Source: SAR324 cluster bacterium
GTDB lineage: Bacteria > SAR324 > NAC60-12
Assembly: GCA_015232315.1 (NCBI GenBank)
Contig: JADFZZ010000035.1
Coordinates: 1 to 53,577 of the forward strand
DNA: 53,577 nucleotides
Direction: 5' to 3'
The notes beneath the pieces were generated by a model, which saw nothing but the letters and a program-made list of their open reading frames with translations, had not been told where the DNA came from and ran no database searches. The position numbers and the translations under genes were made by a program. Positions 10,166 through 47,867 of the stretch are shown here, piece after piece. Numbering within the stretch: the first letter of the stretch is position 1; each line of letters begins with the position of its first letter.

Positions 10166-10179
10166 AGTTTGTCATTCAC

Positions 10180-11691
10180 TCAAGAGTTGGTAGTGGAAAG
10201 GTAAATTTTACGGTAATGATTGTAAAAAATTGGCATGTCATAATACTCTTTCATCCTCTGTTTGCCTGCCTCACCCAGCCTTTTAGCCAGAGATGGTTTC
10301 TGCAGGATCGACACGATAGCACTGGCGGTTGAGTCTGGAGACGCCAGGCCGGTGATGATCCCTCCGGGTCCCAGTGACTTGTCTTCATCACGTCCTTCCA
10401 GCAACTCCCGACAGGCGCCCACATCCGAGGCCACACAGGGAATTCCCAGACATTGGGCTTCGAGGATCACCAGGGGTTGTCCCTCACTCAGACTGGTCAG
10501 CACCATGACACTCAGTTTGGGATAGTATCTTTTCAGATCCACGTTCCCGGTATAGGTCAGAAGGTGATCAATTTTCAGACTTTTCGCCAGTTGTACACAT
10601 TCTTCATAATATTTTTTATCTTCTTCTGTGGGGCCCATGATCCAAACCTGAATTTCAGGAATCACCCGGACAACGAGAGCAATTGCTCTCAAAAAGGTCT
10701 TTACATCCTTGATTGGAACCACCCGGCCCACAAAGCCGATCACAGGGGGGGTCTGAGGATCAGGGGTCAATTGGCTCATTGTTGAATATTCCACACCATT
10801 GGGAATCACTTTCAGTTTTTCCACGGGCGCCCCGTCATCCATCTGCAAACGCTGATTTCCCGTAAACAGTGTGATGATCTGTTCAGCCTGATCGTAACAC
10901 ATACGGGACATCACTCTGAAGGAATCAATCCAGATTTGTTTGAAAGTGTCCATTTCCTGTTCCGCATTGAATCTGTTTTTGGATTTTTCAAAAATCCATG
11001 AGGCCCGCGAAATCTCGATTTTACGTTCCTTGCTGTAGATCCCATGTTCCGTCACAATCATTGGCCGTCCCGTGAGGATTCCTGCTCTGGCCGCCAGCAA
11101 GCCGGCATAGCCTGTAGAAACGGTGTGATACATCCGGCACAGGGGCACTTCTGCCGCTATCGTGGTCAAGATTCCTGCATGGAGATATTTCCAGGTCCAA
11201 TAATAATCCAGAAAAGAGGCTTCAGGATTGCGGATGTGATTCAGTTGTACAATGGAGTTCCATACCGCCTTGGAATGAAATACTGAGGGAATATTCCATT
11301 CTTTTTTATGAAATTGAGCCACCACTTGTTCAAATTCATCCTTTCCCAGAGTGGGATTGTCCGAATCAACGACAAACGGCATGTTCATGTGAAAATTCCA
11401 GGATGAGGACAGGGCCTCACGGGAAGGCGGTTGTTTCATCAGGGGTTTTTCAAACAGGGAGGGATCCTGAAGATACACTTCATGGATTCCTGTCACATTG
11501 GCTGGAATGGGGTATTTGGGTTTGCGTTCCTGTTTGTCAGGCAACAGCAGGACAATGCTGTAGGTGAACTCCTTCAGTCCATTGATCAGGGAATGCACCC
11601 AACTGCTCACACCACCGGGCACATAAGGATATGTTCCTTCAAGGATAAGACAGATATCCGCTTCATATTGCGGTTGTTCCCCGGTATGCAT
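10180..11691 (-). CDS. pelF: PelF, family GT4 glycosyltransferase
   Basis: The N-terminus 'DICLILEGTYPYVPGGVSSW' is diagnostic for PelF, the cytosolic UDP-sugar-dependent glycosyltransferase that polymerises Pel. The second Rossmann half contains 'IGFVGRVVPIKDVKTFLRA' and the retaining-GT4 EX7E motif in 'SEGQPLVILEAQCLGIP'. At 503 residues it matches the usual PelF length. It is 11 bp downstream of pelE and 14 bp upstream of pelG. No transmembrane segment is seen, as expected for a soluble subunit recruited by PelD/PelE/PelG. Confidence 0.96.
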   Translation of the reverse strand: MHTGEQPQYEADICLILEGTYPYVPGGVSSWVHSLINGLKEFTYSIVLLLPDKQERKPKYPIPANVTGIHEVYLQDPSLFEKPLMKQPPSREALSSSWNFHMNMPFVVDSDNPTLGKDEFEQVVAQFHKKEWNIPSVFHSKAVWNSIVQLNHIRNPEASFLDYYWTWKYLHAGILTTIAAEVPLCRMYHTVSTGYAGLLAARAGILTGRPMIVTEHGIYSKERKIEISRASWIFEKSKNRFNAEQEMDTFKQIWIDSFRVMSRMCYDQAEQIITLFTGNQRLQMDDGAPVEKLKVIPNGVEYSTMSQLTPDPQTPPVIGFVGRVVPIKDVKTFLRAIALVVRVIPEIQVWIMGPTEEDKKYYEECVQLAKSLKIDHLLTYTGNVDLKRYYPKLSVMVLTSLSEGQPLVILEAQCLGIPCVASDVGACRELLEGRDEDKSLGPGGIITGLASPDSTASAIVSILQKPSLAKRLGEAGKQRMKEYYDMPIFYNHYRKIYLSTTNS

Positions 11692-11702
11692 GCGATGTCC
11701 TG

Positions 11703-12740
11703 TTAAATCAATTGAAGATGTGCGCCTTGATCCGCCTCCAGAATCTGGCTTTCAAACGCCCAGAAATTGAGGGAATCCTGGAGTTGTGGAGTCCATTCTT
11801 CCACGTCCTGTTCAGTGACACAGGAAAAGGCAAAAGATTGCAGTTCCTCGTATTGCCGTGCGGCAAAATAGGCTTCCGCAATCCATGAAATAAGAAGATT
11901 CGATTGTGGATTATTTTGGTATCCCGCCAACAATACTTCCAGAGCGTCTTGTGTCTGTTTGTTCCGCAGGAGCAGACGTCCGAGTTTATAACTGGCGTCT
12001 TCATGTCCGGGCACATGCTTCAGAAATTTGCGATAGGTTTGTTCGGCTTCTTCCCTGAAATTGTGTGCCACATCCGCCGCGGGTAATTCCCAGAAATAAT
12101 ATTCATCCAGCATTTCTGCCAATTCCATGGTCAGTTCATGATTTTCAGGATCTTCACTTATTTTTTTCCGAATATCCTCGAAAGTTTTCTGAAACATATC
12201 ATTGAGTTGGATCAGTCCACTTGCCGAATAATACCGAATATCCGGATTACGGTCCAGGAGTCCGCCCTTGAGCAGTTTGACGGACATTTTACCTGGATGC
12301 TGGATCAATTTATCCACCACACTTTGCTTGAGGCGAACATTGTCGCCTTTCATGATATCCACAAACGGCAGAACCTGATAATCGCTGTCATCTTTCCAGA
12401 AATTTTCTGACAGTTTGTATTTGAATTTGTCTGTGGTTGTGATTTTAACTTCCAGAATATTTTTTTTATATTCCTCAACGCTTCCCGGTTTGCTTCTACC
12501 TAAAAAAATGACCGTACACAAGGCACCGACTGTGGCAAACACTCCGGTGAAAGGAACAATCAGCAGATAATATTGATAAAATCGATCTGTGAAATGAACA
12601 GGTTTCCACCGCCAGGCCAATATTCCCGGAAGCAAAGGCGGAAGCAGATGTGCCTGAATCAGATTCCATGGTTCAGGTAGAACCCATAAACCTGTGCCCT
12701 GCAGAATTCCTGTAACCAATAGCATCAAAAAACATCTCAT
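11703..12740 (-). CDS. pelE: PelE, membrane scaffold with TPR-like repeats
   Basis: Two hydrophobic stretches at the N-terminus (about residues 1-45 and 58-85) are followed by a soluble helical domain. The domain has TPR-like repeats around residues 215-320 ('AEQTYRKFLKHVPGHEDASYKLGRLLL', 'DALEVLLAGYQNNPQSNLLISWIAEAYF'). Position between pelD and pelF, with a 4-bp overlap with pelD, supports PelE, a poorly conserved scaffold of the synthase complex. Identification rests mostly on synteny and architecture, since PelE sequences diverge strongly. Confidence 0.88.
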   Translation of the reverse strand: MRCFLMLLVTGILQGTGLWVLPEPWNLIQAHLLPPLLPGILAWRWKPVHFTDRFYQYYLLIVPFTGVFATVGALCTVIFLGRSKPGSVEEYKKNILEVKITTTDKFKYKLSENFWKDDSDYQVLPFVDIMKGDNVRLKQSVVDKLIQHPGKMSVKLLKGGLLDRNPDIRYYSASGLIQLNDMFQKTFEDIRKKISEDPENHELTMELAEMLDEYYFWELPAADVAHNFREEAEQTYRKFLKHVPGHEDASYKLGRLLLRNKQTQDALEVLLAGYQNNPQSNLLISWIAEAYFAARQYEELQSFAFSCVTEQDVEEWTPQLQDSLNFWAFESQILEADQGAHLQLI

Positions 12741-14155
12741 TTTCCAGCCTGTTTTGCGATATTGGCAATCATGTCATTGAATCGGTCAGCACCAGTTCCC
12801 TGAATTTCCCAAACCAGGGGGTGGTTGAATAAAGATTGATCCTGACTTTCCAGTACATTCCATTCCAGGAGCAGGACTTCAAAGTCATTGTCTTCAAATG
12901 GTTTGAATTCAAAGCCGATCAATTCCCTGAGACAGCGCATGATGGCGACATTGGCACCTTGATGTTCTGTATACGGTTGAATGATGGCAAACTGATAATC
13001 CTCAAACTCTACACGTGCGACCAGATCCTCATCACGGAATTGAAACAGCAGAATACGCGCGACAATACTCAAAACAGTATTCTGAATGGTTTCAGTCATA
13101 TCCTGAAACCGGACAATCTTCACCAGGGTCAGAGCAGTCTTCAACTTATAGCGTTGTGTCAACCTGATTTCACGTTGCAGACGTTCCTTGAAATACGCAT
13201 AGGTAAACGTCTCCGTGAGTGGATCCCTGATCTGTCGTTCCTGACTCACACTGAAACGCCAGGCATTGTCAATGGCCCGCATCATCCAGTCGGCGAGGAT
13301 CTCCAGCATTTTGGCTGTCGAGGCATTCAGTTCCAGAAAAGACAGTTTTTCAATTTTGATCATCCCATACAGATGTTTGTTTTGATCAATGAGGGGCGAG
13401 ACCATGATAGAATTATCAATGTCCCTCAAATCCTGCGGCATCAGAATTCGCATTTGGCGTATGAGTTGTTGATACAGCGGACTGCTGGAATTGTAGTTAT
13501 CCGGATATTCCTGCAAACTATGCCAGCCGATTTGTGAAATGAACATCAATTGATCTTCCTGATGCAGATAAAAAGAACAGGCCTGTGCCCGTAAATATTC
13601 CTTGAGCAACACAGGGATTTTCTGAAAGATCTGTTCTTTCTGCAGACTGCCCAGACTTTTAGAAGCTTCATAGAGCGTCAAGATGGTATCTTCACGGGAA
13701 ACCACCTTTTTTTCCAGATTGAGGTTGGCTTCAATCAAACGCTGACGGTCGGTTTCAATGTCCTCAATCTGCTGATGAAGTGAATCCAGATCCTTGAAAT
13801 TATCAGAAATCAGGTTTTTTTGCCGGCGGTTGATAAAACCAAGCAGAGCGCCACCTGATACAAAGGCAAAGGGTGAAAACGCCAGCACCATCAGTTCCAT
13901 GGGTTGAATGTCTTTCAGCTCAGCCCAGTTCAGTGTCAATCCCCCAGCAATGATTCCCGTGACAATGCCTGCCACCGGACCATACATCAGCGCCAGACTG
14001 ATGACCACCAGCCAGTAGGGATGCGGAGACAATTCACCAAGACTCATGTGGAGACTGTGGAGATAAATTTCCACCAGTTCAAAGGCCAGAAAAAACAGGG
14101 GGATTTCCACCAGATAAATTTTTGCCACAGGAAATTTTTGAAAAAACGCTTTCAT
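12737..14155 (-). CDS. pelD: PelD, c-di-GMP receptor (GAF plus degenerate GGDEF)
   Basis: The protein has four N-terminal transmembrane helices (about residues 10-110), a short coiled coil at about 118-150, a GAF domain (about 155-305) and a GGDEF-like domain (about 315-470). The catalytic GGDEF is replaced by EFEDY at 383-387. The allosteric inhibitory-site motif RxxD is kept as Arg374-Asp-Glu-Asp377, exactly five residues upstream, as in active diguanylate cyclases. This is the known logic of PelD: it cannot make c-di-GMP but binds it at the I-site and switches on Pel synthesis. It overlaps pelA and pelE by 4 bp on either side, implying translational coupling. Confidence 0.94.
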   Translation of the reverse strand: MKAFFQKFPVAKIYLVEIPLFFLAFELVEIYLHSLHMSLGELSPHPYWLVVISLALMYGPVAGIVTGIIAGGLTLNWAELKDIQPMELMVLAFSPFAFVSGGALLGFINRRQKNLISDNFKDLDSLHQQIEDIETDRQRLIEANLNLEKKVVSREDTILTLYEASKSLGSLQKEQIFQKIPVLLKEYLRAQACSFYLHQEDQLMFISQIGWHSLQEYPDNYNSSSPLYQQLIRQMRILMPQDLRDIDNSIMVSPLIDQNKHLYGMIKIEKLSFLELNASTAKMLEILADWMMRAIDNAWRFSVSQERQIRDPLTETFTYAYFKERLQREIRLTQRYKLKTALTLVKIVRFQDMTETIQNTVLSIVARILLFQFRDEDLVARVEFEDYQFAIIQPYTEHQGANVAIMRCLRELIGFEFKPFEDNDFEVLLLEWNVLESQDQSLFNHPLVWEIQGTGADRFNDMIANIAKQAGK

Positions 14156-33104: not shown

Positions 33105-35141
33105 ATGTCTGATCAGGAAAAACAGCGCGAAGAGCAATTATTACGACAGTTCAAACGGTTGGATTCATTTCTTCATGACAATACCCTCAGGTTTGAAGAA
33201 GAATTTGATACGCACAACAAGGCTCTCAAAAAAGCCCGCGATGACATCCGTGAACAGGAAGATGAGCAGGAAAACAAGCTCGTTTCCAGGGAATTACGGC
33301 ATCTCAATTCCATTCGAAATAGCACTGAGGCCATGAAATCAGCCAGAGAAATTGACGCCGAGGATGGCATCACCAACCGGATCCACATGATGACCATTGT
33401 TCTTGCACGGATGTCCAACCCGAAACTGTTTCAGTTGCTGATTCAAAAACGATTGAATATCACAGATCTCGAGCATCTGACCTTTGTTCAAATGCCCCAT
33501 GAAGTGGATGCCATCCTGTTCATCACGAATCCGTTGTTGATCTTTGAATTGCTGGTGGATCTGATGAAGTTCAGGGAAAAACACAAAGGCTTTATTTTCA
33601 TGTATCTTTCCAATCGCATCGCCCGCTGGTTGTTCTGCTTCACACGTTTTCTGATAGACTATGATGAACTGGAACGAATGGTTCGCCTGACGTTTCTGCA
33701 TGAAAAAAGGTTCACACCCTTCAAACAACAATTTTTGAAGGTGGTTCAACAACTATGTGAAGACACCCGCAAACAGGTTGAAAGTCGGCAAAAGCCACTA
33801 TTTCACAATGATTTACGTCGACTGTATATGTTGCTGACCCATGCGCTGTTTATTGCCTGCCGGGAAGGAATTGCCGTTCAAACTGAGATTAAATCAGCTT
33901 TGACTGAACTGGTTCCCCGCTTGAATTTTGACAACAAGGCGCTGACCGATGATGGGGAATATCATGAATTTTCTATCCATCACCTGGGGATTCCAACGCT
34001 CAAGGATTCCTTTCTGGAACAGTTTGAACGTCTCAAACAACAGGATATGGTCTACACGCTGGAGTTTCTTGGTTATCTGCATCCTGCGGATCGACAACTG
34101 ATCCTGAGTTTTCAATACCGACAGTCCAGATCTTATATTTTGCGGTTGCTTGCGCGGTTGAAACAGGAATATCAGCAACATCAGGGCACCCCGCCTGTGC
34201 ATTATCATCAGATCACTGAAACCCTTCATCAACTGATCAATTATCAGGAACTGCTCTCTGATCCTGAAGTCGATCAGTCCCTGGTCAAAGTTATGTTTCC
34301 GGAGGGACAACTGGCTATGGGTGGAACAATTCCGTTGGGAAGCAATCTCAACATTCCCCAATCCCCCCTGCCTGAGTTTATTCCGTCCAAAGAAATTTTT
34401 GACGCGTTTTATTTTGACCCCGCAGATGCCCTGAGGAATGACTTCCTGGTCGAACTTGCGGCGATCCCGTTCAAGTATGTGCTGTCTCAACGGGATATTC
34501 CGGGATTTTATCTGCTCACCCTCGGAGAGTTTTTCCTGATGGAATCAGAACCTGAAGCCTTTGAGGCTGTTCTGGATTATATGCTTTATTCCGGACAAAT
34601 GACTTCCATGGAAATTCTGGTAGCAAAGGACTGTGCCGCCAATCTGCGGCGGATGGCTGACAAACTCTTGAAACAGATCGGAACCGTACGTCCTGAAGTG
34701 GCGTTTTTTAATGGTTTGAATCAATTGCAGTGGACCAACGCCTGCCTGGCCGTTTCAAGACTACGCACGCCACTTGAAAAGAAATTTCCCCGTATTTTGA
34801 ATCGTGTCCAGCATCAAACCATGCTCATGACTTTTTTACTGGAAATAGAAAAATGGCTGGCCGACAGAAAAAAAATCAAACCGCATCAATTGAAAGCCAC
34901 CGAGATTCCACACGTGCTGACCAGTTATCAGGCCAAAACAATTTATCAGCATCTGGAACGAATTCCAGCCTGCGCACCATGGAAACCACAACTGGATTAT
35001 TATCTTTCCCATGAAAAACATTTCGTGCATGAAATTCTCACAGTTCATAAACAACACGTCCAATTGCTGGCTTACGATAAAATCAGATTCCGGTCGCGGG
35101 AACCGATGGATGATAATTTCAATGAAAATGGAGATTTATGA
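33105..35141 (+). CDS. Unknown large helical cytoplasmic protein
   Basis: I do not recognise the family. The 678-residue protein has no signal peptide or transmembrane segment. Residues 3-60 are strongly charged and likely a coiled coil ('EEQLLRQFKRL', 'HNKALKKARDDIREQEDEQENK'). The rest is a helical, Leu/Phe/His-rich region without metal or nucleotide motifs. Its stop codon overlaps the start of the fused binding-protein gene by 4 bp (ATGA), so the two are translationally coupled. A role as an intracellular partner in the same signalling or uptake system is inferred from this context only. Confidence 0.78.
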   Translation: MSDQEKQREEQLLRQFKRLDSFLHDNTLRFEEEFDTHNKALKKARDDIREQEDEQENKLVSRELRHLNSIRNSTEAMKSAREIDAEDGITNRIHMMTIVLARMSNPKLFQLLIQKRLNITDLEHLTFVQMPHEVDAILFITNPLLIFELLVDLMKFREKHKGFIFMYLSNRIARWLFCFTRFLIDYDELERMVRLTFLHEKRFTPFKQQFLKVVQQLCEDTRKQVESRQKPLFHNDLRRLYMLLTHALFIACREGIAVQTEIKSALTELVPRLNFDNKALTDDGEYHEFSIHHLGIPTLKDSFLEQFERLKQQDMVYTLEFLGYLHPADRQLILSFQYRQSRSYILRLLARLKQEYQQHQGTPPVHYHQITETLHQLINYQELLSDPEVDQSLVKVMFPEGQLAMGGTIPLGSNLNIPQSPLPEFIPSKEIFDAFYFDPADALRNDFLVELAAIPFKYVLSQRDIPGFYLLTLGEFFLMESEPEAFEAVLDYMLYSGQMTSMEILVAKDCAANLRRMADKLLKQIGTVRPEVAFFNGLNQLQWTNACLAVSRLRTPLEKKFPRILNRVQHQTMLMTFLLEIEKWLADRKKIKPHQLKATEIPHVLTSYQAKTIYQHLERIPACAPWKPQLDYYLSHEKHFVHEILTVHKQHVQLLAYDKIRFRSREPMDDNFNENGDL

Positions 35142-37279
35142 AAATAAAATATTTATCAGGTGTGTTGGGAATCATTGCGATTCTGGTGCTGATATTTTTT
35201 ATGAACCGGAATCCCGTAAAGAATATTGCTGAGATGCCCAAACCGGAATCACAAACCATCCAACTGCAATTTGGACATAACATGCCTGTTGATTCAGCCA
35301 TTCATCAGGCCTCGCTCAAATTCGCCGAACTGGTGAAGACCGGCACGTCAGGCAAAATCACGATTCAGGTTTCGTCTGGTCATGAATTGGGTTCCGATGA
35401 ACAAATGCTGGAAAAACTTTTAATGGGAGAATTACCGATCCTGGTGATTCCTACCGCAAAAATGGCCACCCTCTATCCGCCTTCACAATTTCTTGATCTG
35501 CCGTTTTTATTTGAAAATGAACAAGAAGTTTATGCCCTCATGGATGGACCGGTTGGAAAACAATATTTGAAAGGACTCGAATCCAAGGGGTTGCAGTGTG
35601 TCACTTTTTGGGGCAATGGGTTCAAACAGTTCATTGGCAATAAATCACTGAACGAACCTGAAGCGTTTAAGGATCTGAGAGTGCGAACCATGAAAAGCAA
35701 TCTGATCATGGATCAATTCCGTCAATTTGGCGCAAATCCGATTCCATTGGAATTTTCCAGGGTTTATGAGGCCCTCCGTGATGGTGTTGTGGATGCCCAG
35801 GAAAATCCATTGGCGGCAGTCAAAGCTATGAAATTTTATGAGGTGGAGAAACATATCACCCTGAGCAATCACGCCTATCTGGCCTATGCGTTTTGTTTTA
35901 ATCAGAAAAAATTAAAAGAGTTAGCGCCTGAAGCACAAAGTGCCCTGATTTTTTCAGCGCAGGATACAACGCCTCTGCAACGTCAGTGGATTGAAGCCGG
36001 AAATCAGGAAGACATGAAAGACCTCGAACAACTTGGTGTGATTTTTCATGAGTTAGATGAGGCCAATAAAATGAAATTCCGGAAACTGGCAAAACCCTTG
36101 TGGGATTCCTATCAGAATGTGATTGGAGAAACGCTGTGGCAGGGACTTATCCCTCTCATGAAAAATAAACACGAAACCGGGGATCAATGGATCATCGCCT
36201 TGAACGCGGATCTCAGTTCTTTTGCCGCCAGTGCGGGTCTGGCGATCAAACGGGGAATGGAACTCGCCATTGATGAGATCAACGACCGTGGCGGTGTGCT
36301 GGGAAAAAAACTGGGGTTGCTTGAATTGGATCATGTCGGTATCCCCGCACGGGGACAGGCTAATGTTCAACAGGCCTCGGTAACCCCCAATGTTGTCGCA
36401 ATCATGGGCGGACTTCACAGTGGAGTGATTTATTCAGAATTGCCATTGATTCACGAATTAAAGATTCCCTACCTGGTTCCCTGGGGAGCCAGCAATCTCA
36501 TCACTGACACAAATTATAAGCCCTCCTATGTTTTCAGATTGTCCGCCCGTGATGAATATGTCGCTCAATTCATGGCATCCTACGCCATGAAACATTATAA
36601 CAGAATCGGATTGATCCTGGAAAATACGGATTGGGGACGGAGCAACCATGAATCCATTCTGGCCGTTATGAAAAAAAGCGGAAACAGTCCTGCCTCCATC
36701 GAATGGTTTGACCGGGGAAACAGCAACCTTGAAGTGCAGATCAGCCGCTCGGCTGTTGCCAATGTGGATGTTCTGATCATGGTTGCCAATGTGGTAGAAG
36801 GCGCGGCCATTATCAATGAAATCGCACGAAGGGAAAACTCGATTCCAGTCCTGTCTCATTGGGGAATCAGTGGGGGTGACTTTTTTATAAAAACACGTGA
36901 ATCATTGAAAAAAGTCTCCCTTAAATTTATCCAGACTTATTCTTTTGTGGGTCCGTTGAAACCTGAAGGTGAAAAGCTTCGGGAACATTATCTCAAAAAA
37001 TACAATATCCTGAATCCCGGTCAAATCCCCTCGCCCGTGGGAACCGCCCATGCTTATGATCTTATCTGGTTGCTCAAACAGGCCATGGAACAAGCAGGTT
37101 CAGCGGAGCCTGAAAAAATCCGGCAGGCTCTGGAATCAATGCCTGCTTTTGAAGGAGTAACCACCACCTTTCAACCACCCTTCACCCCCGAACGCCATGA
37201 AGCTCTTGATTCACAAAGCTATATCTGGACTGTCTATGATGCTGAGGGAAACATGGTACCTGCGATACAGCAGGAATAA
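35138..37279 (+). CDS. Fusion of TRAP (DctP) and ABC LivJ-type solute-binding domains
   Basis: After one N-terminal hydrophobic segment (about residues 8-22, signal or anchor) comes a complete DctP domain (about 40-340). It has 'LQFGHNMPVDSAIHQASLKFAELV', the ligand-binding Arg region 'FKDLRVRTMKSN', and 'GVVDAQENPL'. A second periplasmic domain (about 349-705) is of the branched-chain amino-acid receptor type: 'GLAIKRGMELAIDEINDRGG', 'ELKIPYLVPWGAS', 'YVFRLSARDEYVAQFMASYAM'. The two domains normally belong to separate transport systems. No TRAP membrane subunits (DctQ/M) or Liv permeases are adjacent. The next genes encode a hybrid kinase and a phosphatase, so a sensory receptor role is more likely than transport. 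Confidence 0.92.
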   Translation: MKIKYLSGVLGIIAILVLIFFMNRNPVKNIAEMPKPESQTIQLQFGHNMPVDSAIHQASLKFAELVKTGTSGKITIQVSSGHELGSDEQMLEKLLMGELPILVIPTAKMATLYPPSQFLDLPFLFENEQEVYALMDGPVGKQYLKGLESKGLQCVTFWGNGFKQFIGNKSLNEPEAFKDLRVRTMKSNLIMDQFRQFGANPIPLEFSRVYEALRDGVVDAQENPLAAVKAMKFYEVEKHITLSNHAYLAYAFCFNQKKLKELAPEAQSALIFSAQDTTPLQRQWIEAGNQEDMKDLEQLGVIFHELDEANKMKFRKLAKPLWDSYQNVIGETLWQGLIPLMKNKHETGDQWIIALNADLSSFAASAGLAIKRGMELAIDEINDRGGVLGKKLGLLELDHVGIPARGQANVQQASVTPNVVAIMGGLHSGVIYSELPLIHELKIPYLVPWGASNLITDTNYKPSYVFRLSARDEYVAQFMASYAMKHYNRIGLILENTDWGRSNHESILAVMKKSGNSPASIEWFDRGNSNLEVQISRSAVANVDVLIMVANVVEGAAIINEIARRENSIPVLSHWGISGGDFFIKTRESLKKVSLKFIQTYSFVGPLKPEGEKLREHYLKKYNILNPGQIPSPVGTAHAYDLIWLLKQAMEQAGSAEPEKIRQALESMPAFEGVTTTFQPPFTPERHEALDSQSYIWTVYDAEGNMVPAIQQE

Positions 37280-37575: not shown

Positions 37576-40182
37576 ATGAACAGAAGCACTCACAGTATTA
37601 AAAACAGACTGGTAGGATGGATACTGGTATTGGTCACCGGAGCTATATTGCTGGTGACTGTCGCAGGATCTCTGGTGGTGATGTTGACCATCCGGAATGC
37701 CATGGAAGAATCCCTGAGTCTGAATGCCAAACGCATCATTCAGGCTCTGGAATACCGGTTACGGTTTCTGGAAGAAAATGTGCACAATCTCAGTAAGAAT
37801 CACTTGATCGTCAACAGTCTGATTGATCCACAGGCCAAGGAACTTTACCTGCCGAAACTGATTGAGGATTTCAATAAAACCTCAGGCATTGTTTCGACAT
37901 CCATTCTCGGGTTTGATGGACGGGACATTTATTCAAGTTCGGAACATTCTGATTATAAAAATGATCCCTCGTTGCGCCCTGTGTTGCAATTGGGGCAGTC
38001 CCTTGTCAAAATTGAAATTAATCAGGGGACCCGCCATGTTGTCATGGTTGAACCCATTGTGTTTTATGACACTCCCCAGGGCGCATTGATGGTGCATTTG
38101 AACGTCAGCAATCTGGCTGAATATGTCTTGCTGGAAGATCCGGAACTGTCCTATCGACTGCTGGTTGCTGATGAACCTTTGCTTTCAATCAATTACAGGA
38201 AGGATGTATCTTACGTGAAACGTGTTGAAACCATTGGCGCGGAGTTTTCTGAACTCCATCGGTTGAAGGCTGAACTGGAATTGAATCTCCCCACCAGCAA
38301 GTATAATCAACCATTGATGTCACTGATCATACAACTGGGCCTGGTGATTCTGCTACTGATGATCGTTTCGGTTTTAGTTGCCCGCCGCATGGGAAATAAA
38401 CTGGTTCAGCCTATTTTGAAACTGTATGACACCGTCAAATCTGAAGATCAGTCTCTGCGTTGCAGTCCGACAGGAACCCACGATGAACTGGAGGCTCTCG
38501 CCCGTGCGTTTGACCAGAAAACAGATCTTCTGTTGTCTGCCAACGCCGAGTTGGAGCAGTATAAAGAAAATCTGGAATTGCAGGTGGCTCAACGGACCCG
38601 TGATTTACAGCAGACGAATCAGGAACTGTTGCAAGCCAAGGATGAAGCTGAAAAGGCGGCTCAAATCAAAGCTGAATTTCTGGCTACCATGAGCCATGAA
38701 ATCAGGACACCCATGAATGGTGTTTTGGGAATGAGTCGGTTGCTGGAGCAAACAACCCTGAATCCGGAACAACAGGACTATGTGGAAACCATACTGTTGA
38801 GCGGAGAGGGCTTGCTGGCCATCATCAATGACATTCTCGATTTTTCAAAAATTGACTCCGGCAAACTTGAACTGGAGTCACGTCCATTTTCAGTGAGAAA
38901 ATGTATCCAGCAGGCCCTGCATCTCATGGAACCTGTGGCCACAGAAAAAAATCTGGAACTGCGTTACTGGATTGAAGAAGAGGTCGACCACTGGATTCTG
39001 GGGGATATCATCCGTTTAAGACAGATTCTGATCAATCTGATCAGCAATGCCATCAAATTTACCGAACAGGGAGGAATTACCATCAGGGTTTCAGCCCTTT
39101 CATCCATCAAGAATCAGGAGCAAATCACACTGTTGTTCTCAGTGCAGGATACAGGCATTGGCATTGGCAGAGAAACCATTGACAAACTGTTTAAACCATT
39201 TTCACAAGGAGACTCCTCCACCACCCGAAAATATGGAGGAACCGGTCTTGGCCTGGTGATTTCCGAACGTCTGGTGGAACAGATGGGTGGCGACATTTGT
39301 GTCGAAAGCGAAGAGGGGGAAGGCTCCATTTTCTTTTTTTCCATTGATACCGCGTTTACTCAACCGGGAGATACGGATAAGGAACAACAAACTGGTTCCG
39401 CGGAAGTTGCCGCACAGATCAACTCAGAAACCGTCCCAGCCAATATTCTGATTGCGGAAGACAATCACATCAATCAGAAATTACTGGTGAAAATTCTCAA
39501 TCAGCGTGGTTTTCAGCCCCAGGTGGCCGAAAATGGTTTAAAAGCACTGGAAAAGATTCGTGACCAGACTTTTGATCTGGTATTTATGGACATGCAGATG
39601 CCGGAAATGGATGGTTTGGAGGCGACCCGTCAAATCGTCAGCAACTATGCACCGGCGAAACGTCCCAGGATAGTTGCCATGACCGCCAATGCAATGCCTG
39701 AAGACCGGGAACGCTGTCTACAGGCTGGAATGGATGATTATCTCAGCAAACCCGTTCTTGACAGCGATGTGTGGCTCATGATCCAAAAATGGTGTTCTTC
39801 ACAGGCAACCTCCGATGTAACCTCCGATGAAGTCTCTATCGCCGAGGCATCGCTGATTGATATGTCTTTTCTGAATGAGTGGCTTGAACGTGACCCCGAA
39901 TTTGCCAAAATGCTCGGAGAGGAATTCATTGATCAGGGACACACATTGATTGGTGAAATGGAGGCCTTTATTGTATCAGAAAACTGGGATCAACTTCGCC
40001 GTCACGCTCATAAATTCAAAGGCAGTGCCCTCGCCTTGAAAGCGGGCGGCCTGGCGGCCCAGTGTCTGGATATTGAACAGAAGGCCCTGTTGGGAGATAA
40101 AGCACAGTTGCGCCTGTTGTGGCAAAATATGAGTCAGGATTATGTGAAACTTGAGAATCTGCTGACCCGTGTGTTGACATGA
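37576..40182 (+). CDS. Hybrid sensor histidine kinase with receiver and Hpt domains
   Basis: Domain order: TM1 (about 13-38), periplasmic sensor region (about 40-247), TM2 (about 248-270), HAMP (270-325), coiled coil. HisKA follows with His374 in '[11 protein letters not shown]', then HATPase with N-box '[13 protein letters not shown]', 'DTGIGIG' and '[13 protein letters not shown]'. A receiver (about 620-735) has phosphoacceptor Asp672 in '[11 protein letters not shown]'. A C-terminal Hpt has His812 in '[10 protein letters not shown]'. This is a complete phosphorelay in one chain. The gene follows the dual binding-protein gene across a MITE and precedes a receiver-PP2C gene by 29 bp, its probable output. 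Confidence 0.95.
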
Positions 40183-40211: not shown

Positions 40212-41351
40212 ATGAGTGCTCAACCCAGAATCCTGATCGTTGATGATGAGGTCATCAACCGTAGAATTATTCAACGAATGCTGGAAAAAAAATATCAGGT
40301 GTTTACCGCGGAAAACGGCAGGCAGGCACTTGAAATGATGCCGCAGGTGGAACCTGACCTGATTTTACTCGACATCCTGATGCCTGATCTGGATGGATTT
40401 CAGGTGTGTGAAATGATCAAGGAACACAAAATCTGGCGGTTCATCCCTATCATTTTCCTGACAGCACTGGGCGCCAAAGAAAATACTGATGTGGCAAGTG
40501 CGGCAGGCGCTGACGGATTTCTGGAAAAACCTGTGGATGAAGCCACGTTGCTACCACTACTCGATTTTAACCTGAAAATGAAATTCAGGGTTGATCACAT
40601 TCGGGAACTTTACTACGAATTGGAAAATGATCAGAAAATCGCGCGAACTTCTCAGGACCGGCTGTTATCAAGGATTCCACAAATTCCATGGGCCAACATC
40701 AGCACCATTTACCAACCCTATGGCGATGATCGTGGTTTGAACTTTGTTTGTGGCGATTTTTATGATTTCCGTGTTTCAGAAAATCAATTGCACGTTTTTC
40801 TCGGTGATGCCACAGGGCATGGAACGCTGGCAAGCTTTGTAACCTTCATGGCCAGAATCGCCCTGCAGCAGGGGGTGATGGAAAATAAAAGTCCGTCCGG
40901 AGTGATCTGTCACATGAATGAGATGTTGATGAAAGTCTTGCCCGATGACTGTTTTATGACAGCCTGTTACATGGTGTTTGACTTTGATAATAACCAGATC
41001 ATTCAATGCAATGCAGGACATCCGGGTCCAATCTGTTTCTCAGCCGCTGGTTCAGCCATTACTGTGACCACTTCAGGACTCCCCCTGGGAATCATGCCCT
41101 TTGCTTATGACGAAGAAAAACTGCCCTTGGGACAGGGCGATCGCATGTTGCTTTATACGGATGGCCTTGTTGAAGTTGCCAACGCAGAGGATCAACTCTG
41201 GGGACATGAGGGTTTGAAAAACTCACTTTCAACAGCCCTCAATCTGCCCTTGTCACAATGGATTCATCACGCACTTGCCACTTCCAGATCATTCAATGCC
41301 CAGTCCTTTTTTAATGACGATGTCACTGTGATTGCCATTGAACGTGCATGA
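40212..41351 (+). CDS. Response regulator with PP2C (SpoIIE/RsbU-type) phosphatase output
   Basis: The receiver domain (residues 4-125) has Asp10-Asp11-Glu and phosphoacceptor Asp54 in 'LILLDILMPDLDG', Thr in 'FLTAL' and Lys in 'FLEKPVDE'. A short linker leads to a SpoIIE/PP2C domain (about 165-378) with metal-binding 'CGDFYDF' near 181, 'GDATGHG' at 198-204 and 'NDDVTVIAI' near 368. Such proteins dephosphorylate anti-sigma-factor antagonists (RsbV/SpoIIAA-like) or related STAS proteins. No STAS or RsbW gene is in the window. It most likely receives phosphate from the kinase encoded 29 bp upstream. Confidence 0.94.
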   Translation: MSAQPRILIVDDEVINRRIIQRMLEKKYQVFTAENGRQALEMMPQVEPDLILLDILMPDLDGFQVCEMIKEHKIWRFIPIIFLTALGAKENTDVASAAGADGFLEKPVDEATLLPLLDFNLKMKFRVDHIRELYYELENDQKIARTSQDRLLSRIPQIPWANISTIYQPYGDDRGLNFVCGDFYDFRVSENQLHVFLGDATGHGTLASFVTFMARIALQQGVMENKSPSGVICHMNEMLMKVLPDDCFMTACYMVFDFDNNQIIQCNAGHPGPICFSAAGSAITVTTSGLPLGIMPFAYDEEKLPLGQGDRMLLYTDGLVEVANAEDQLWGHEGLKNSLSTALNLPLSQWIHHALATSRSFNAQSFFNDDVTVIAIERA

Positions 41352-41747: not shown

Positions 41748-44700
41748 ATGCAATTCCATTTTGATTTATTCATTCCCTATGGCATTCCTCCACTGCTGAG
41801 TGTGATTGTTGCCCTGTTTCTGGCATCTTTGACGATCAAAGCCGGAAAATACAACAGGGAAAATCAGTTATTCACTCTGTTCTGCCTGTTTCAAATGTTG
41901 GACAATCTTATGGGATTGCTCAACACGGTTCAGGTTTCATCGTCAGAATCTCTTGTGACCACCAGACTCGTTAGTCTGTTCTATATCTTCATCATTCCTG
42001 TCAGCATTCATCTCTTCCACACCATGCTACAAATTCAGAAACGAAAATGGCTGTTGCGGGGAAGTTATCTGCTCATTGGGGCAATGGCCCCCTTGACGCA
42101 AACGGCATGGTATATTCAGGAAAAACAAAAAGTATTTTATGGCTTTGTCGTTAAAACAGGCTTGGTCTATCAGATCATCTCCCTACTGGGGTTGATGACG
42201 CTGATATATTGTGGCTTGTTGCTGACCAGTGCGTTGCGGGCTGAGCAAAGCCCTGTGCAACGGAAAAAAATCCGGTTTATTTTCTGGGGGTTGTTCCTGA
42301 GCGGAATGCTCACGGTGATTGACGCCTTGTTAGACATTTCCGGTCATACGGTTTATCCGTTGGCAAATTTTGGTTTCATCCCACTGGGATTGATGGCCTA
42401 TGGACTACTGCGGCATGACCTGATGGAGATTGCCACCGAATGGTTTTCTCAGGGCTATCTTTCCAGAATTCTGGGTATTTTTGTCTGGTGGCCTCCCGTC
42501 GTCGCCTTCCTGTTTTATTGGCTGTCACCACCGGGAATTTTTTATCCGGACCTCATCGAACAGATCGTTCCCTATGGAATTCCTCAGATTATTTCTCTGT
42601 TGGTCTGCTATAGCCTGGCATCGTTCTGTTTTTTTCAGGGAAATTACCGGATGGACACCCTGCTGTTTGGCGCGCTTTGCTGGCTCTGGGGTGGCTTGAG
42701 TCTGGAGGTCACGCTGATACCACTGCTCGCAGACCCGCAATGGGCCTTGACTGTCAGTAGAATCGACCACTTTTTTCTGGTCAATCAATTGGGGATCTAT
42801 GCCGGATTTTTATATTACTTTGCGGGTGTGAATAAAAAATGGGTTTACCTGTTCACGATGGCAGGCCTCCTGTTCATGCCGTTCACCCTCACGGATTGGT
42901 ATTATCAGGGGGTCTATTCCTATGACTGGGGATTCTTTCCTGAAAAAAACATTCTGTTTGAGGTGTTCATTTTTGTGGCACTGTTTGAAGTGTTGTGGAC
43001 GATCCACACATTACTATCAAAAATCCTTGCCACCCAAGACCTTCAACAACGCAAATCATTCCTGTATTTTCTTGCTGGTGGAATCTTTTCGGCCGTGCTG
43101 AGTCTGACGGATGTTCCAGCCGTGTATGGTTGGGATTTTTATCCCCTCGGAAATTTCATGTTCCTGCCCACCCTGATCATGGCTGTTGGAATCTTCAGAT
43201 ACGATCTGATCAGGATCAGCCCCTACAGGAAAGAGCTGGCACTGCGTAAACTGGCACTGGTGATGCTGGCTCTGGTCTATGGCGCGTTGCTGTTGCTGGC
43301 ATGGAAAGGACTTGCCGGCCATTCCCTGAAGGAGATCCTGAAGGAAATTATTCCTTACAGGATGTTTTCGGTCCTGTCTCTGGGAATCTGCCTGTTTCTT
43401 TCCTTTGCGGCTCTTCGTGTGGGGCGACTTAAACAGGAACTGCTGTTATTCAGTTTATCCTGTGTATTATTAGCCCTGCTCTCGCTGGACCTGTTGCTTC
43501 TCGGCCTGGTCAATACGCCTGAACAAGCCCTGAAAATCATGCGAATTGATCATTTGTTCGTGGTGTTTATTCCATCGGTTTCATTGCATCTGACGCTCGT
43601 TCTGTCAGAGGTTTCCCGCCCCAAAACCCTGTTGCTGGCATACATGGTCAGCCTGTTGTTGTTGCCCTGGACCCAAACCGATTATTATTTTCAGGGGGTT
43701 CTGCATTATTACTGGGGGTTTATTGCTGAAAAAAATGTGGTCTTTGATGTTTTCGGAATTTTTATTGTGCTGGTTGGCGCACTGGACATTTATATTGTCT
43801 ATACCGGTTATCATCGCCTGACGGAGGCCTATAAAAAACGGCAATTGGGCTATTTCGGCTGGAGTCTCATCATCTTACTCCTTCTCAATCTGGGAAACAT
43901 GCCCGCAATGTATGGAATAGCCCTGTATCCTTTGGGCAATTTTACTTTTCTACCCATCCTCCTTCAGGGCTATGCACTGCTTCAACGCTATCAGGCGTCG
44001 GTCGTTCAGCTTTTAAGGAAGAGCCTTCACTTTGGAATTTTGCTGGGATTTGTTTCCGGTATCGCGGTTTTTCTTGGAAACTATTCGATTCCTGAACCGG
44101 TTATTATCATTGGACTCGTTTTCGGGTTTCGCATCCTGGATCGAATAGCCTTTCAATTGTTGAATCTTGTATTTCCCACGGAACGTCATTACTGGAAAAA
44201 AGTTTTGCAGGATATCAACATCAAGCTGTCGATTGCGCTGAATCAGCAAAGTGTGGAACAGACGGTGATCCCACACCTGCTTCATACGATGGAAAGCCGG
44301 AAATGCCGCCTGTTTTTTTCTGATAAACACGCGCTGTTTTTTCAGGGTACCAGCTACCTTCCGTTGAGCAGGGATCAGGATTATCGGCAGACAGGTTATT
44401 TCCCGGAGGATTCACTCAAAATCAATGCGGATCACCCGCTGGTGCAAATGCTGTATGAAGCCCAGGATCAAATCTCTTCAGATCAAATGGATGAATGGTG
44501 CAGGTCCCATGGCATTGTGCTGAATCCGGATGAAGGATTTTCAGCCAGTGTTCTGCTTCAACCTGTCTTTTTTCATGGCGCACTGATCTGTTTCATCACG
44601 CTTGAAGAAAAACAGAATGAACAACTCTATGCGGTAGAGGAGCAGGAATTTGTCAGAAATCTGGCCTCAAGTCTGGGTCCTGTCATTGAAAACATCCGCT

Positions 44701-47700
44701 TGATCGTGTCTTTGGAAGAACGGGTCCATGAACGCACCCAAAACCTGCAAAAGGCAAGGGACCAGTTGAGTCTGATCAATTCCATCAGCCAGAAAGTCGG
44801 ACTTGCTCTGAATTTAAAAGAAGCGTTCCATATTTTCATCACGGATGTGGTCCGTAGCCTGGAACGCGAGGCTTCCGGTTCCATTTTTCTGTATGACGAA
44901 GCTTCAGGAAAACTGGTTTATCTGGACAGCTATCAACTGGTGGCGGAAGTGGCCAAAACTTTTTCGATCAAGGTCAATCCGGAATCCTCCTATGCCTGGT
45001 TTGTTTTCCAGACGCAACAACCCGCACTAGTCCAGCAAAAACAGATTGTCAAATTTTTGACAGATGATTTTTTAAAAATGCATTGTGGCAAAATGCCTCT
45101 TGAGCAACTGATACTTCCCCTGGTTTCCTCTGGAAAAGTCGCAGGTCTCATCAATATTTCCCATTATGATTCGAATCGCCTGCTACAAATGGATGAGCAG
45201 TATTTTTTGCAGGGACTCGCCCGTAACCTGTCCCATCATTTTGACATGATCCTGCATGTGGAGGAACTTCAGGAACGGGAGCAGGAAATCGCTCACATCA
45301 ATCAGATCGCTCAAGCCGTCAATTCAACCCTGGCCCTGGATGAGGTTGTGCAGGTGGTATCAGAAGCACTGCAAAGTATTTTTGAGTTCAATCAGATTGG
45401 TATCTGGTTGGAAAATGAGGACCGTACCGCTTTGAAAGTGGCGTTCCATTATGGCGAAGCGCTCTCCAGAGAGACCTTTGATCAACTGCGGGAAATTGAA
45501 ATGCCACTGAAACCGTTTGCCAGCTACATTTGTGAAGTCTATCTGAAACGTTCGCCGGAATATTTTCCACAGATCACGGAGGAATTTCTGGGATATTTCT
45601 TTCCCAAAGACACACAAATCCAGAAAATCACCCAATCCATTGCCTATTTGCTCTATCCGCTGGAAGTTCACAACAAGGTGATTGGTGTGATTGCATTTGG
45701 TCATACCCATCAATTTTTCAATCTGAAAGAAGATGAAATTTATAAAATTCAACGCTATGTCACCCAGATCGCGACCGCGATTCACAATGCAAGACTTTAT
45801 GAAGAAACCCTTGAACATGAACGGCAAATTCAGATCGCACATCAGGAAATGAGTCATCTGAATGAAGTGCTGCAAACCGTCAATTCCACGCTGGATCTGA
45901 ATCAGGTTGAGCAAACCACACTCAAGGCGTTGGACGATCTGTTTGGTTTTGGCGCGCTTTGTATCAGTTTGATTGATTCGACGGCCACCAATCTTGTGTT
46001 TCTCAGACCTTATGGAAACAGGGTTCCCGAAGCCACCAAAGCCAGGTGGGAATCCATTAAAATTCCGTTGAATTCTGATAGCTTTGTCGCAAAAACCGTT
46101 CAATACAACAGTCCGAACTATATCCAGAACATCACACCGGAGTTGACTGAATTTTTCGATGTTCATGACCGCCAGCTTTATGACATTTACCCCTTTTGCT
46201 GGGTCTTGCTCATGCCCCTGGAGACACAACAGAAAGTGATCGGAACCATAGTGTTTGGTGATAATGAAAAACTCATTGAAATTTCCGAACAGGATTTGAA
46301 AAAAATCGGCTGGTATGTGGCCCAGATCGCCAATGCTTTGCAGAATGCCAGAATTTATGAAGACTCGCTCGAAAAACAATCCCAGATTGAAGCGGCCCGT
46401 CAGGAAATCCAGCACATGAATCAAGTGATTCAAATCGTCAATTCCACGCTGGATCTGGATGTGATCGTCAAACAAGTCATGAATATTTTACAGGAAATTT
46501 TTGAGTTCAATGGACTGGGAATTTCGCTGATGGACGATACCGGGGAAAATCTGGTGTTTCACGCGGCGTATCATGATGGCAGTTGGTCTGGTTTTGATGA
46601 AGAAAAATGGAAATCCGTTGTGATCCCGGTTACGTGCGAAAACAGTTTTTTTGTAAAAACCCTGTTCTACAATGATCCAAACTATATTTCCCCCATTACG
46701 CATGAACTTGTTGACTATTTTGAAGACCATGATCGTCAGCTCCAGGCTATTTTTCCCACAAAATCTGTTCTGTTTTGTCCTTTGAGTTTTCAGGGAAAAG
46801 CCATTGGTGTCATCAATTTTGGAAATGTGCACAAAACCTTTGATCTGACTGATGCGGATATTATGAGGATCCAGCAATATGTGAATCAAATCAGTAACGC
46901 GGTGCATAACGCGCAACAGTATGAAGCCCTGAAAACCACCAAAATCCAGTTGGTGGAAAGCGAAAAAATCGCGGCCATGACCCATACTTTTGAGAAATTT
47001 GTTCCGAAACAGTTTTTAAACCGTATTGCCCATGAAGGTCTGGAATCCATTGAATTGGGGAGAGCCGAAAGCGATACCATCACCATTCTGTTTTCTGATA
47101 TTCGAGCCTTCACTGAAATGTCTGAAACCATGAGCGCTCAGGAATTGATGAATTTTCTGAATGCTTATTTACAGCGCATGAGCGAACCCATTCATCAATA
47201 TGGCGGCTTTGTCGATAAATTTATCGGCGATGCCATCATGGCTCTGTTTGACTTTCCGGACAAAACAGACGCTGAGGAAGCTGAATGTGCGGTCAAGGCC
47301 GCCATTGCCATGCAGGAAACATTAAAAATCTATAATCAACATCGACAACAGTCCGGATACCCCCCTGTCGCTTCCGGTATTGGAATTCATTGTGGACCAG
47401 TCGTGATCGGAACGGTGGGTTCCAGAGACCGGATGGATTCGACCGTGATTGGCGATAATGTCAATCTGGCATCCCGTCTGGAAGGATTGACCAAATTTTA
47501 TGGAGTGGACATATTGATCAGCTCCGATGTTCTGGAATTGATCAGCGATCGAAATTTCATGCAATACAGGGAACTGGATTATGTGCGGGTGAAAGGCCGT
47601 AAAAATCCTGTCTCAATCTTTGAGGTTTACAACCACAATCAACCTCAGATTCAGTCCTTAAAGCGTGCTTCCGGCAAATATATCCTTCGAAGCCTGATTT

Positions 47701-47867
47701 CCCGGCAATTAAGCGACTGGAACAACACCGAACAACATTTAAGGAGAGCCCTTGAAGTCTACCCCGAAGACAGTGCCGCCCGATTTCTGCTGAAACAAAC
47801 TCATCTGTTGCAACAAAAAAATCTACCCGCAGATTGGGATGGCGCCATCAATCTGGATGAAAAGTAA
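41748..47867 (+). CDS. Giant sensor: three 7TM-like units, five GAF-like domains, class III adenylate cyclase
   Basis: The 2039-residue protein starts with three related membrane units at about 8-228, 273-495 and 534-745. Each begins 'I(V/I)PYxxP'-like and ends with 'YPLxNFxFxP', resembling the 7TM N-terminal region of some histidine kinases. Two more TM helices follow, to about 805. Five GAF-like domains come next, starting near 815, 1005, 1183, 1370 and 1556. The last three are close repeats with a period near 187 ('HINQ..', 'VNSTL' openings). A class III cyclase domain (about 1770-1965) has metal Asp in 'FSDIRAF' and 'KFIGDAIM', and 'VIGDNVNLASRLEG'. The Lys before FIGD favours ATP. A TPR-like tail ends the protein. 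Probable product: cAMP. Confidence 0.93.
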   Translation: MQFHFDLFIPYGIPPLLSVIVALFLASLTIKAGKYNRENQLFTLFCLFQMLDNLMGLLNTVQVSSSESLVTTRLVSLFYIFIIPVSIHLFHTMLQIQKRKWLLRGSYLLIGAMAPLTQTAWYIQEKQKVFYGFVVKTGLVYQIISLLGLMTLIYCGLLLTSALRAEQSPVQRKKIRFIFWGLFLSGMLTVIDALLDISGHTVYPLANFGFIPLGLMAYGLLRHDLMEIATEWFSQGYLSRILGIFVWWPPVVAFLFYWLSPPGIFYPDLIEQIVPYGIPQIISLLVCYSLASFCFFQGNYRMDTLLFGALCWLWGGLSLEVTLIPLLADPQWALTVSRIDHFFLVNQLGIYAGFLYYFAGVNKKWVYLFTMAGLLFMPFTLTDWYYQGVYSYDWGFFPEKNILFEVFIFVALFEVLWTIHTLLSKILATQDLQQRKSFLYFLAGGIFSAVLSLTDVPAVYGWDFYPLGNFMFLPTLIMAVGIFRYDLIRISPYRKELALRKLALVMLALVYGALLLLAWKGLAGHSLKEILKEIIPYRMFSVLSLGICLFLSFAALRVGRLKQELLLFSLSCVLLALLSLDLLLLGLVNTPEQALKIMRIDHLFVVFIPSVSLHLTLVLSEVSRPKTLLLAYMVSLLLLPWTQTDYYFQGVLHYYWGFIAEKNVVFDVFGIFIVLVGALDIYIVYTGYHRLTEAYKKRQLGYFGWSLIILLLLNLGNMPAMYGIALYPLGNFTFLPILLQGYALLQRYQASVVQLLRKSLHFGILLGFVSGIAVFLGNYSIPEPVIIIGLVFGFRILDRIAFQLLNLVFPTERHYWKKVLQDINIKLSIALNQQSVEQTVIPHLLHTMESRKCRLFFSDKHALFFQGTSYLPLSRDQDYRQTGYFPEDSLKINADHPLVQMLYEAQDQISSDQMDEWCRSHGIVLNPDEGFSASVLLQPVFFHGALICFITLEEKQNEQLYAVEEQEFVRNLASSLGPVIENIRLIVSLEERVHERTQNLQKARDQLSLINSISQKVGLALNLKEAFHIFITDVVRSLEREASGSIFLYDEASGKLVYLDSYQLVAEVAKTFSIKVNPESSYAWFVFQTQQPALVQQKQIVKFLTDDFLKMHCGKMPLEQLILPLVSSGKVAGLINISHYDSNRLLQMDEQYFLQGLARNLSHHFDMILHVEELQEREQEIAHINQIAQAVNSTLALDEVVQVVSEALQSIFEFNQIGIWLENEDRTALKVAFHYGEALSRETFDQLREIEMPLKPFASYICEVYLKRSPEYFPQITEEFLGYFFPKDTQIQKITQSIAYLLYPLEVHNKVIGVIAFGHTHQFFNLKEDEIYKIQRYVTQIATAIHNARLYEETLEHERQIQIAHQEMSHLNEVLQTVNSTLDLNQVEQTTLKALDDLFGFGALCISLIDSTATNLVFLRPYGNRVPEATKARWESIKIPLNSDSFVAKTVQYNSPNYIQNITPELTEFFDVHDRQLYDIYPFCWVLLMPLETQQKVIGTIVFGDNEKLIEISEQDLKKIGWYVAQIANALQNARIYEDSLEKQSQIEAARQEIQHMNQVIQIVNSTLDLDVIVKQVMNILQEIFEFNGLGISLMDDTGENLVFHAAYHDGSWSGFDEEKWKSVVIPVTCENSFFVKTLFYNDPNYISPITHELVDYFEDHDRQLQAIFPTKSVLFCPLSFQGKAIGVINFGNVHKTFDLTDADIMRIQQYVNQISNAVHNAQQYEALKTTKIQLVESEKIAAMTHTFEKFVPKQFLNRIAHEGLESIELGRAESDTITILFSDIRAFTEMSETMSAQELMNFLNAYLQRMSEPIHQYGGFVDKFIGDAIMALFDFPDKTDAEEAECAVKAAIAMQETLKIYNQHRQQSGYPPVASGIGIHCGPVVIGTVGSRDRMDSTVIGDNVNLASRLEGLTKFYGVDILISSDVLELISDRNFMQYRELDYVRVKGRKNPVSIFEVYNHNQPQIQSLKRASGKYILRSLISRQLSDWNNTEQHLRRALEVYPEDSAARFLLKQTHLLQQKNLPADWDGAINLDEK

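Follow-up and report, generated by a model that had tools for sequence, protein, structure and literature searches.

The window analysed here is a stretch of 53,577 nucleotides from a SAR324 cluster bacterium (contig JADFZZ010000035.1 of assembly GCA_015232315.1), and the gene in question lies at positions 41748–47867 of its forward strand. It is an open frame for 2039 amino acids, whose start site agrees with the start sites of its relatives, and it encodes a class III cyclase that carries three seven-transmembrane (7TM) units and five GAF-type domains on the same chain. SAR324 is a widespread, largely uncultured lineage. All features of the gene given below are on the forward strand.

The triple 7TM unit and its membrane topology

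The membrane part is built from unit 1 (residues 3–236, positions 41754–42455), unit 2 (residues 268–498, positions 42549–43241) and unit 3 (residues 529–760, positions 43332–44027). Each was delimited by self-alignment and a profile match, together with an AlphaFold model of its own for unit 1 and a model of the whole membrane part (the triple model) for units 2 and 3. The units share an opening (PYG, PYG and PYR at residues 10, 275 and 536) and an ending (YPLxNFxFxP at residues 203, 465 and 727, with a spacing of exactly 262), in agreement with the initial annotation, which was made from the letters alone and described three membrane units of common opening and ending with starts about 260 residues apart. 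It had also proposed a self-comparison of the protein, in which the units indeed align well above background: the Smith–Waterman scores are 215 (units 1 and 2), 228 (units 1 and 3) and 327 (units 2 and 3), while the maxima are 64 in 300 full composition shuffles and 93 in 300 shuffles that keep hydropathy within 10-residue windows. Since the scores are far above both maxima, the repeat exceeds what a shared membrane composition yields. The identity between the three units is 24%, 24% and 30%, and the unit profile detects exactly three units in the protein.

The AlphaFold model of the unit, for which 25 units of the window and of public loci were aligned, has seven helices and, in the stretch from helix 4 to helix 5, a beta-hairpin (mean predicted local distance difference test score, pLDDT, 94; predicted template modelling score, pTM, 0.89), and in the 815-residue triple model the seven helices and the hairpin are repeated three times. 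Lysine and arginine average 2.2–3.2 per unit in loops 1, 3, 5 and 7 and 0.16–1.56 in loops 0, 2, 4 and 6, which places the N-terminus of the unit outside and its C-terminus inside. In every paralog, unit 1 and unit 2 are each followed by a hydrophobic segment. In the window protein the first of these linker segments covers about residues 237–261 (positions 42456–42530, hydropathy 1.87, a helix in the triple model) and the second about residues 499–522 (positions 43242–43313, hydropathy 2.18, model helix 492–522). Because of this linker helix the chain would be returned outside before the next unit, so that the three units are parallel. After unit 3 there are two more transmembrane helices toward the cytoplasm (about residues 759–808, positions 44022–44171), as seen from hydropathy and from model helices ending at 777 and spanning 783–808, and the relatives L055 and L056 have this pair behind their single unit. 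The membrane part thus counts 7+1+7+1+7+2 = 25 helices (24–25), with the GAF part inside. A tandem 7TM triplication on a GAF-rich class III cyclase is thus supported by the self-alignment, by the profiles, by the predicted structures and by the charge pattern, the last of which fits repeated units.

The membrane part was not named by Pfam or NCBIfam in the whole-protein search. At the curated cut-off, neither the complete protein nor its N-terminus, nor unit 1 alone, matched PF16927 (HisKA_7TM), and a scan of the same genome gave six PF16927 matches, none of them in the window's units. Among 38 units of the family, 12 match HisKA_7TM (best E value 7.6e-11), and all three units match it in L049 and in L052 from other genomes. 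The search with hidden Markov models for the 7TM histidine-kinase N-terminal domain, another check that the initial annotation had put forward, therefore succeeded for some of the relatives and fell short for the window's own units. Since some relatives match and the window's units do not, the module is best described as a divergent relative of HisKA_7TM and not as a direct member of the Pfam family. PF07695 (7TMR-DISM) is not matched by the window protein, with one marginal match (E value 0.008) among the 38 units. When the unit model was compared with solved structures using Foldseek, all 50 matches listed were G-protein-coupled receptors (GPCRs), class C first, with a best E value of 5.4e-4 and a TM-score by query of 0.39–0.65 among the matches listed. 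The triple model agrees weakly with the GPCR likeness, and the matches in the viral library include other 7TM proteins as well as GPCRs. Among 87 units, a DRY-like motif occurs in one, and neither NPxxY nor the cysteine pair between transmembrane helix 3 and extracellular loop 2 (ECL2) occurs in any. Because these class motifs are absent, GPCR membership was rejected.

The GAF chain and the cyclase domain

Behind the membrane part lie GAF-like domain 1 (positions 44250–44777) and GAF domains 2 (44838–45233), 3 (45336–45788), 4 (45891–46343) and 5 (46449–46907). Pfam recognises only GAF domains 2–5 (PF13185, E value 3e-6; PF13492, 2.7e-9; PF13185, 4.8e-5; and PF01590, 2.4e-7, respectively), and the divergent first domain, at residues ~835–1010, has no Pfam match. 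A profile of this domain from ten relatives aligns with the other GAFs in hhalign (E value 4e-5, probability 69%), and its profile search of the PDB returned PDE6, DevS and other GAFs (E values 1e-4 to 5e-3). Since it matches both GAF profiles and GAF structures, the earlier count of five GAF-type domains is correct. Moreover, the last three were rightly described as tandem duplicates with a period of about 187 residues: their mutual scores are 292–350 against a shuffle maximum of 63, their identity is 37–44%, and NSTL[DA]L recurs at residues 1192, 1379 and 1565 of this triplet, spaced by 186–187.

The catalytic domain (positions 47067–47609) matches PF00211 with an E value of 3.8e-26 at residues 1774–1954. 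When aligned to CyaB of Pseudomonas aeruginosa (3r5g, E value 1.5e-35), its motifs FSDIRAF, DKFIGD and TVIGDNVNLASR are intact, as had been claimed from the sequence. Both metal-binding aspartates, the substrate lysine and threonine and the transition-state asparagine and arginine are present, with a metal aspartate in FSDIR, the lysine and an aspartate in DKFIGD, and the threonine, asparagine and arginine in TVIGDNVNLASR. We take the lysine/threonine substrate pair to be that of ATP-using class IIIb cyclases. Judged from the motifs alone, the enzyme is probably active and is predicted to make cyclic AMP (cAMP). The protein ends in a helical, TPR-like tail (positions 47610–47864), which has a weak TPR_19 match (E value 0.2) and a clearer counterpart in the TPR_2 matches of the paralogs L028 and L030. 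A search of a plasmid collection gave only partial matches, confined to the GAF and cyclase regions.

Relatives in the genome and in other lineages

A search of the 5.25 Mb genome with the N-terminus found 12 intact proteins with three units each, that is 36 units, the window protein included, and one decayed copy. A genome_contigs scan with the whole protein as query gave no match. The output is Guanylate_cyc in seven of the triple-unit proteins (the window protein, L024, L026:5705, L027, L028, L030 and L032), GGDEF in three (L026:13501, L031 and L033), HATPase/histidine kinase in L025 and a SpoIIE phosphatase in L034. The decayed copy (L029, 4302–5491) is the nearest paralog of the window protein, with 67–69% identity; in it, window residues 1–183 are fused straight to residues 1523–1734, and 1339 residues and the cyclase are gone. 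By eye, it adjoins a divergent operon for a TRAP (tripartite ATP-independent periplasmic) transporter. The second unit of L032 (8656–9357, reverse strand) falls within the clade of first units, which suggests a probable internal copying event. At L027 (338–4865), two adjacent histidine kinases with cyclic nucleotide monophosphate (cNMP)-binding domains stand beside the triple-7TM cyclase paralog, and a cAMP-controlled phosphorelay is possible there. The whole genome is well stocked with cAMP machinery: class III cyclases give 45 matches and cNMP-binding domains 48, counts that seem unusually high.

Among 52 genomes of the class, strong matches occur only in the window's genome and in G005, a SAR324 metagenome-assembled genome (MAG; JANQJU010000083.1) of the same family as the window's organism, and two more genomes have one weak partial match each. 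The G005 protein (L053, 5163–12221, 2352 amino acids) combines a Ser/Thr kinase, WD40 repeats, two 7TM units, GAF domains and a cyclase on one chain. Farther afield, ten loci with relatives came from scanning 84,980 species genomes with a sequence pattern. The pattern was taken from a six-member alignment of first units, a 27-unit alignment being too diverse to yield patterns, and since it finds mainly unit-1-like sequences the counts from the scan are lower bounds. Five of the ten loci (L048–L052) have three units in one frame: four of these are hybrid histidine kinases (L048, L050, L051 and L052), and L049 is cut by unknown bases beyond the units. The identity to the window protein over about 800 amino acids is 38% for L049 and 35% for L052. 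Three units across a frame break, and a cyclase, are found at L054, and L055–L057 have a single unit each. In the class of L048, at least 120 of 389 genomes have one or more units, nearly all in single-unit proteins, and triples occur in at least seven (G058, G059, G060, G061, G062, G079 and G167), both counts being lower bounds with few candidates scored per genome. In the phylum of L054, matches among 284 genomes are found only in the genome of L054 itself, with three multi-unit loci, and in one other. Triple-unit relatives, mostly hybrid histidine kinases, thus occur in Desulfobacterota-type MAGs, where single-unit relatives are common. The triplication that the initial annotation called striking is therefore real, but it is not peculiar to the window protein.

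A tree of 38 units unites every first unit, that of G005 included, in one clade (100/100). This clade is kept in a tree of 87 units from all lineages (100/99), in which the second and third units fall into separate groups of weaker support. Since the first units group together whatever their lineage, the triplication is ancient, and one tripling event is older than the paralogs and than the split (or transfer) between SAR324 and Desulfobacterota-type lineages. Of the single-unit proteins in the same tree, some cluster with unit 3 and others next to unit 1, which makes both ancestral singles and later losses likely. Among the double-unit proteins, L061 has unit 2 and unit 3 types and L053 has unit 1 and unit 3 types. 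Across 19 triple proteins the mean identity is 0.37, 0.38 and 0.37 for units 1, 2 and 3, respectively, while the units within one protein are 0.27–0.30 identical, and each unit type has conserved residues of its own.

Elsewhere in the window, a 713-residue fusion of a DctP (TRAP-type) binding protein with a Peripla_BP_6/ANF_receptor-type binding protein is encoded at 35138–37279 (forward strand). Just downstream of it are genes for a Cache histidine kinase-REC-Hpt protein (37576–40182) and a REC-SpoIIE protein (40212–41351), and the fusion may sense ligands in the periplasm on behalf of this adjoining signalling cluster. The genes at 8813–14155 (reverse strand) resemble, by eye, an exopolysaccharide cluster of the PelF/PelG type, with TPR repeats in 11703–12740.

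Interpretation and comparison with known systems

We regard it as fairly probable that the protein is a one-component, multi-input receptor cyclase, in which three parallel 7TM sensor modules facing the periplasm feed a single cytoplasmic chain, with its five GAF domains and its class III cyclase. Each 7TM unit would bind or sense something on the periplasmic side. This sensor role is suggested by the fusion of the module to four signalling outputs, by its relatedness to HisKA_7TM and by the conserved residues on the outer face. The three units may do different jobs, as their unit-specific conserved signatures suggest, and these signatures together with the equal constraint on the units point to joint sensing. 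Changes would then travel by way of unit 3 and the final helix pair to a dimeric GAF/coiled-coil rod and would set the cyclase dimer; such dimeric coupling is assumed because it is the established mechanism of class III cyclases. The cAMP formed would report the combination of up to three external inputs and of whatever the GAF domains bind inside. Several points weigh against this reading. The triple model has only moderate confidence (pLDDT 75.7, pTM 0.65), so the packing of the units is unsettled, and a sequence-profile search of the PDB with the units found no matching chain, that is, no solved homolog. The periplasmic bias of conservation is modest, with 17 of the 25 most conserved positions on that side and a Mann–Whitney p of 0.04 over all positions. 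Finally, the double- and single-unit proteins mean that the wider family does not strictly need three units.

More tentatively, the proteins might be taken as a concatenated GPCR-like receptor family, in which three diverged 7TM receptors per chain make a hetero-oligomer of fixed stoichiometry with a joint output, and in which one genome has expanded to twelve receptors feeding cAMP, cyclic di-GMP, a phosphorelay and a phosphatase. We think it unlikely that only one unit senses, in which case unit 3, as the neighbour of the output, would be the most likely sensor and units 1 and 2 would be scaffolds for an array or for partner membrane proteins. One unit can suffice, since in the single-unit relatives a lone 7TM unit and the same helix pair are followed by an output; moreover, some of these singles group with unit 3, and both L061 and L053 keep a unit of that type in their doubles. 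However, other singles group beside unit 1, and units 1 and 2 are conserved as much as unit 3, with the same invariant core; the equal conservation and the unit-specific residues argue against idle scaffold copies. It is very improbable that the 24–25 helices act as a transporter or channel and govern the cyclase through their transport state: the membrane part is very large and has an even, 8-helix repeat as in some transporters, but the 50 Foldseek matches listed for the unit are all receptors and include no transporter, some relatives match a histidine-kinase sensor family, and the module is fused to four signalling outputs. That the repeat arose by recent, neutral duplication within the gene or through faulty assembly, for which one could cite the draft state of the assembly (88 contigs) and the decayed deletion copy, was rejected as next to impossible, since the units are only 24–30% identical and since 12 proteins, each at its own locus, share the triple layout with independent MAGs from other lineages.

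The triple-unit protein is of interest because bacterial 7TM receptors are usually described with one unit per chain, so that a conserved triple unit with equal constraint per copy is a natural test of joint computation. The triple chain fixes stoichiometry and order, one module on four outputs offers ready-made domain swaps, and the system gives access to SAR324 signalling. If confirmed by a structure, the GPCR-like fold prediction would bear on whether GPCR-fold receptors exist in bacteria. In the open-licence literature, searched for tandem, duplicated or multiple 7TM receptors, HisKA_7TM and SAR324 cyclases, a description of such an architecture was not found.

The module resembles HisKA_7TM (PF16927), judging from the unit model and the charge topology, in being a seven-helix module at the N-terminus of signalling proteins. 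It differs in that three modules stand in tandem here and that the outputs extend to cyclases, GGDEF and SpoIIE. HisKA_7TM is named in papers on archaeal histidine kinases only as one sensor domain among several (PMC5847659, PMC6944256). With 7TMR-DISM, 7TMR-HD and LytS-type receptors such as BtsS (PMC10653868) it shares the plan of a bacterial 7TM receptor fused to cytoplasmic signalling domains, but those receptors bear one 7TM unit, and the window's units have no significant Pfam match to them. Class C GPCRs may be alike in fold, with the predicted N-terminus outside and the ECL2-like beta-hairpin of the model; in contrast to GPCRs, the outputs here are bacterial domains on the same chain, and the units have no sequence match to any PDB chain. 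The catalytic domain is like that of P. aeruginosa CyaB, with identical catalytic residues. Cyanobacterial class III cyclases carry GAF domains upstream, as the window protein does. Compared with class III cyclases that have membrane sensors, the window protein lacks a MASE match in Pfam and has, in place of one small membrane domain, 24–25 helices arranged in three homologous units.

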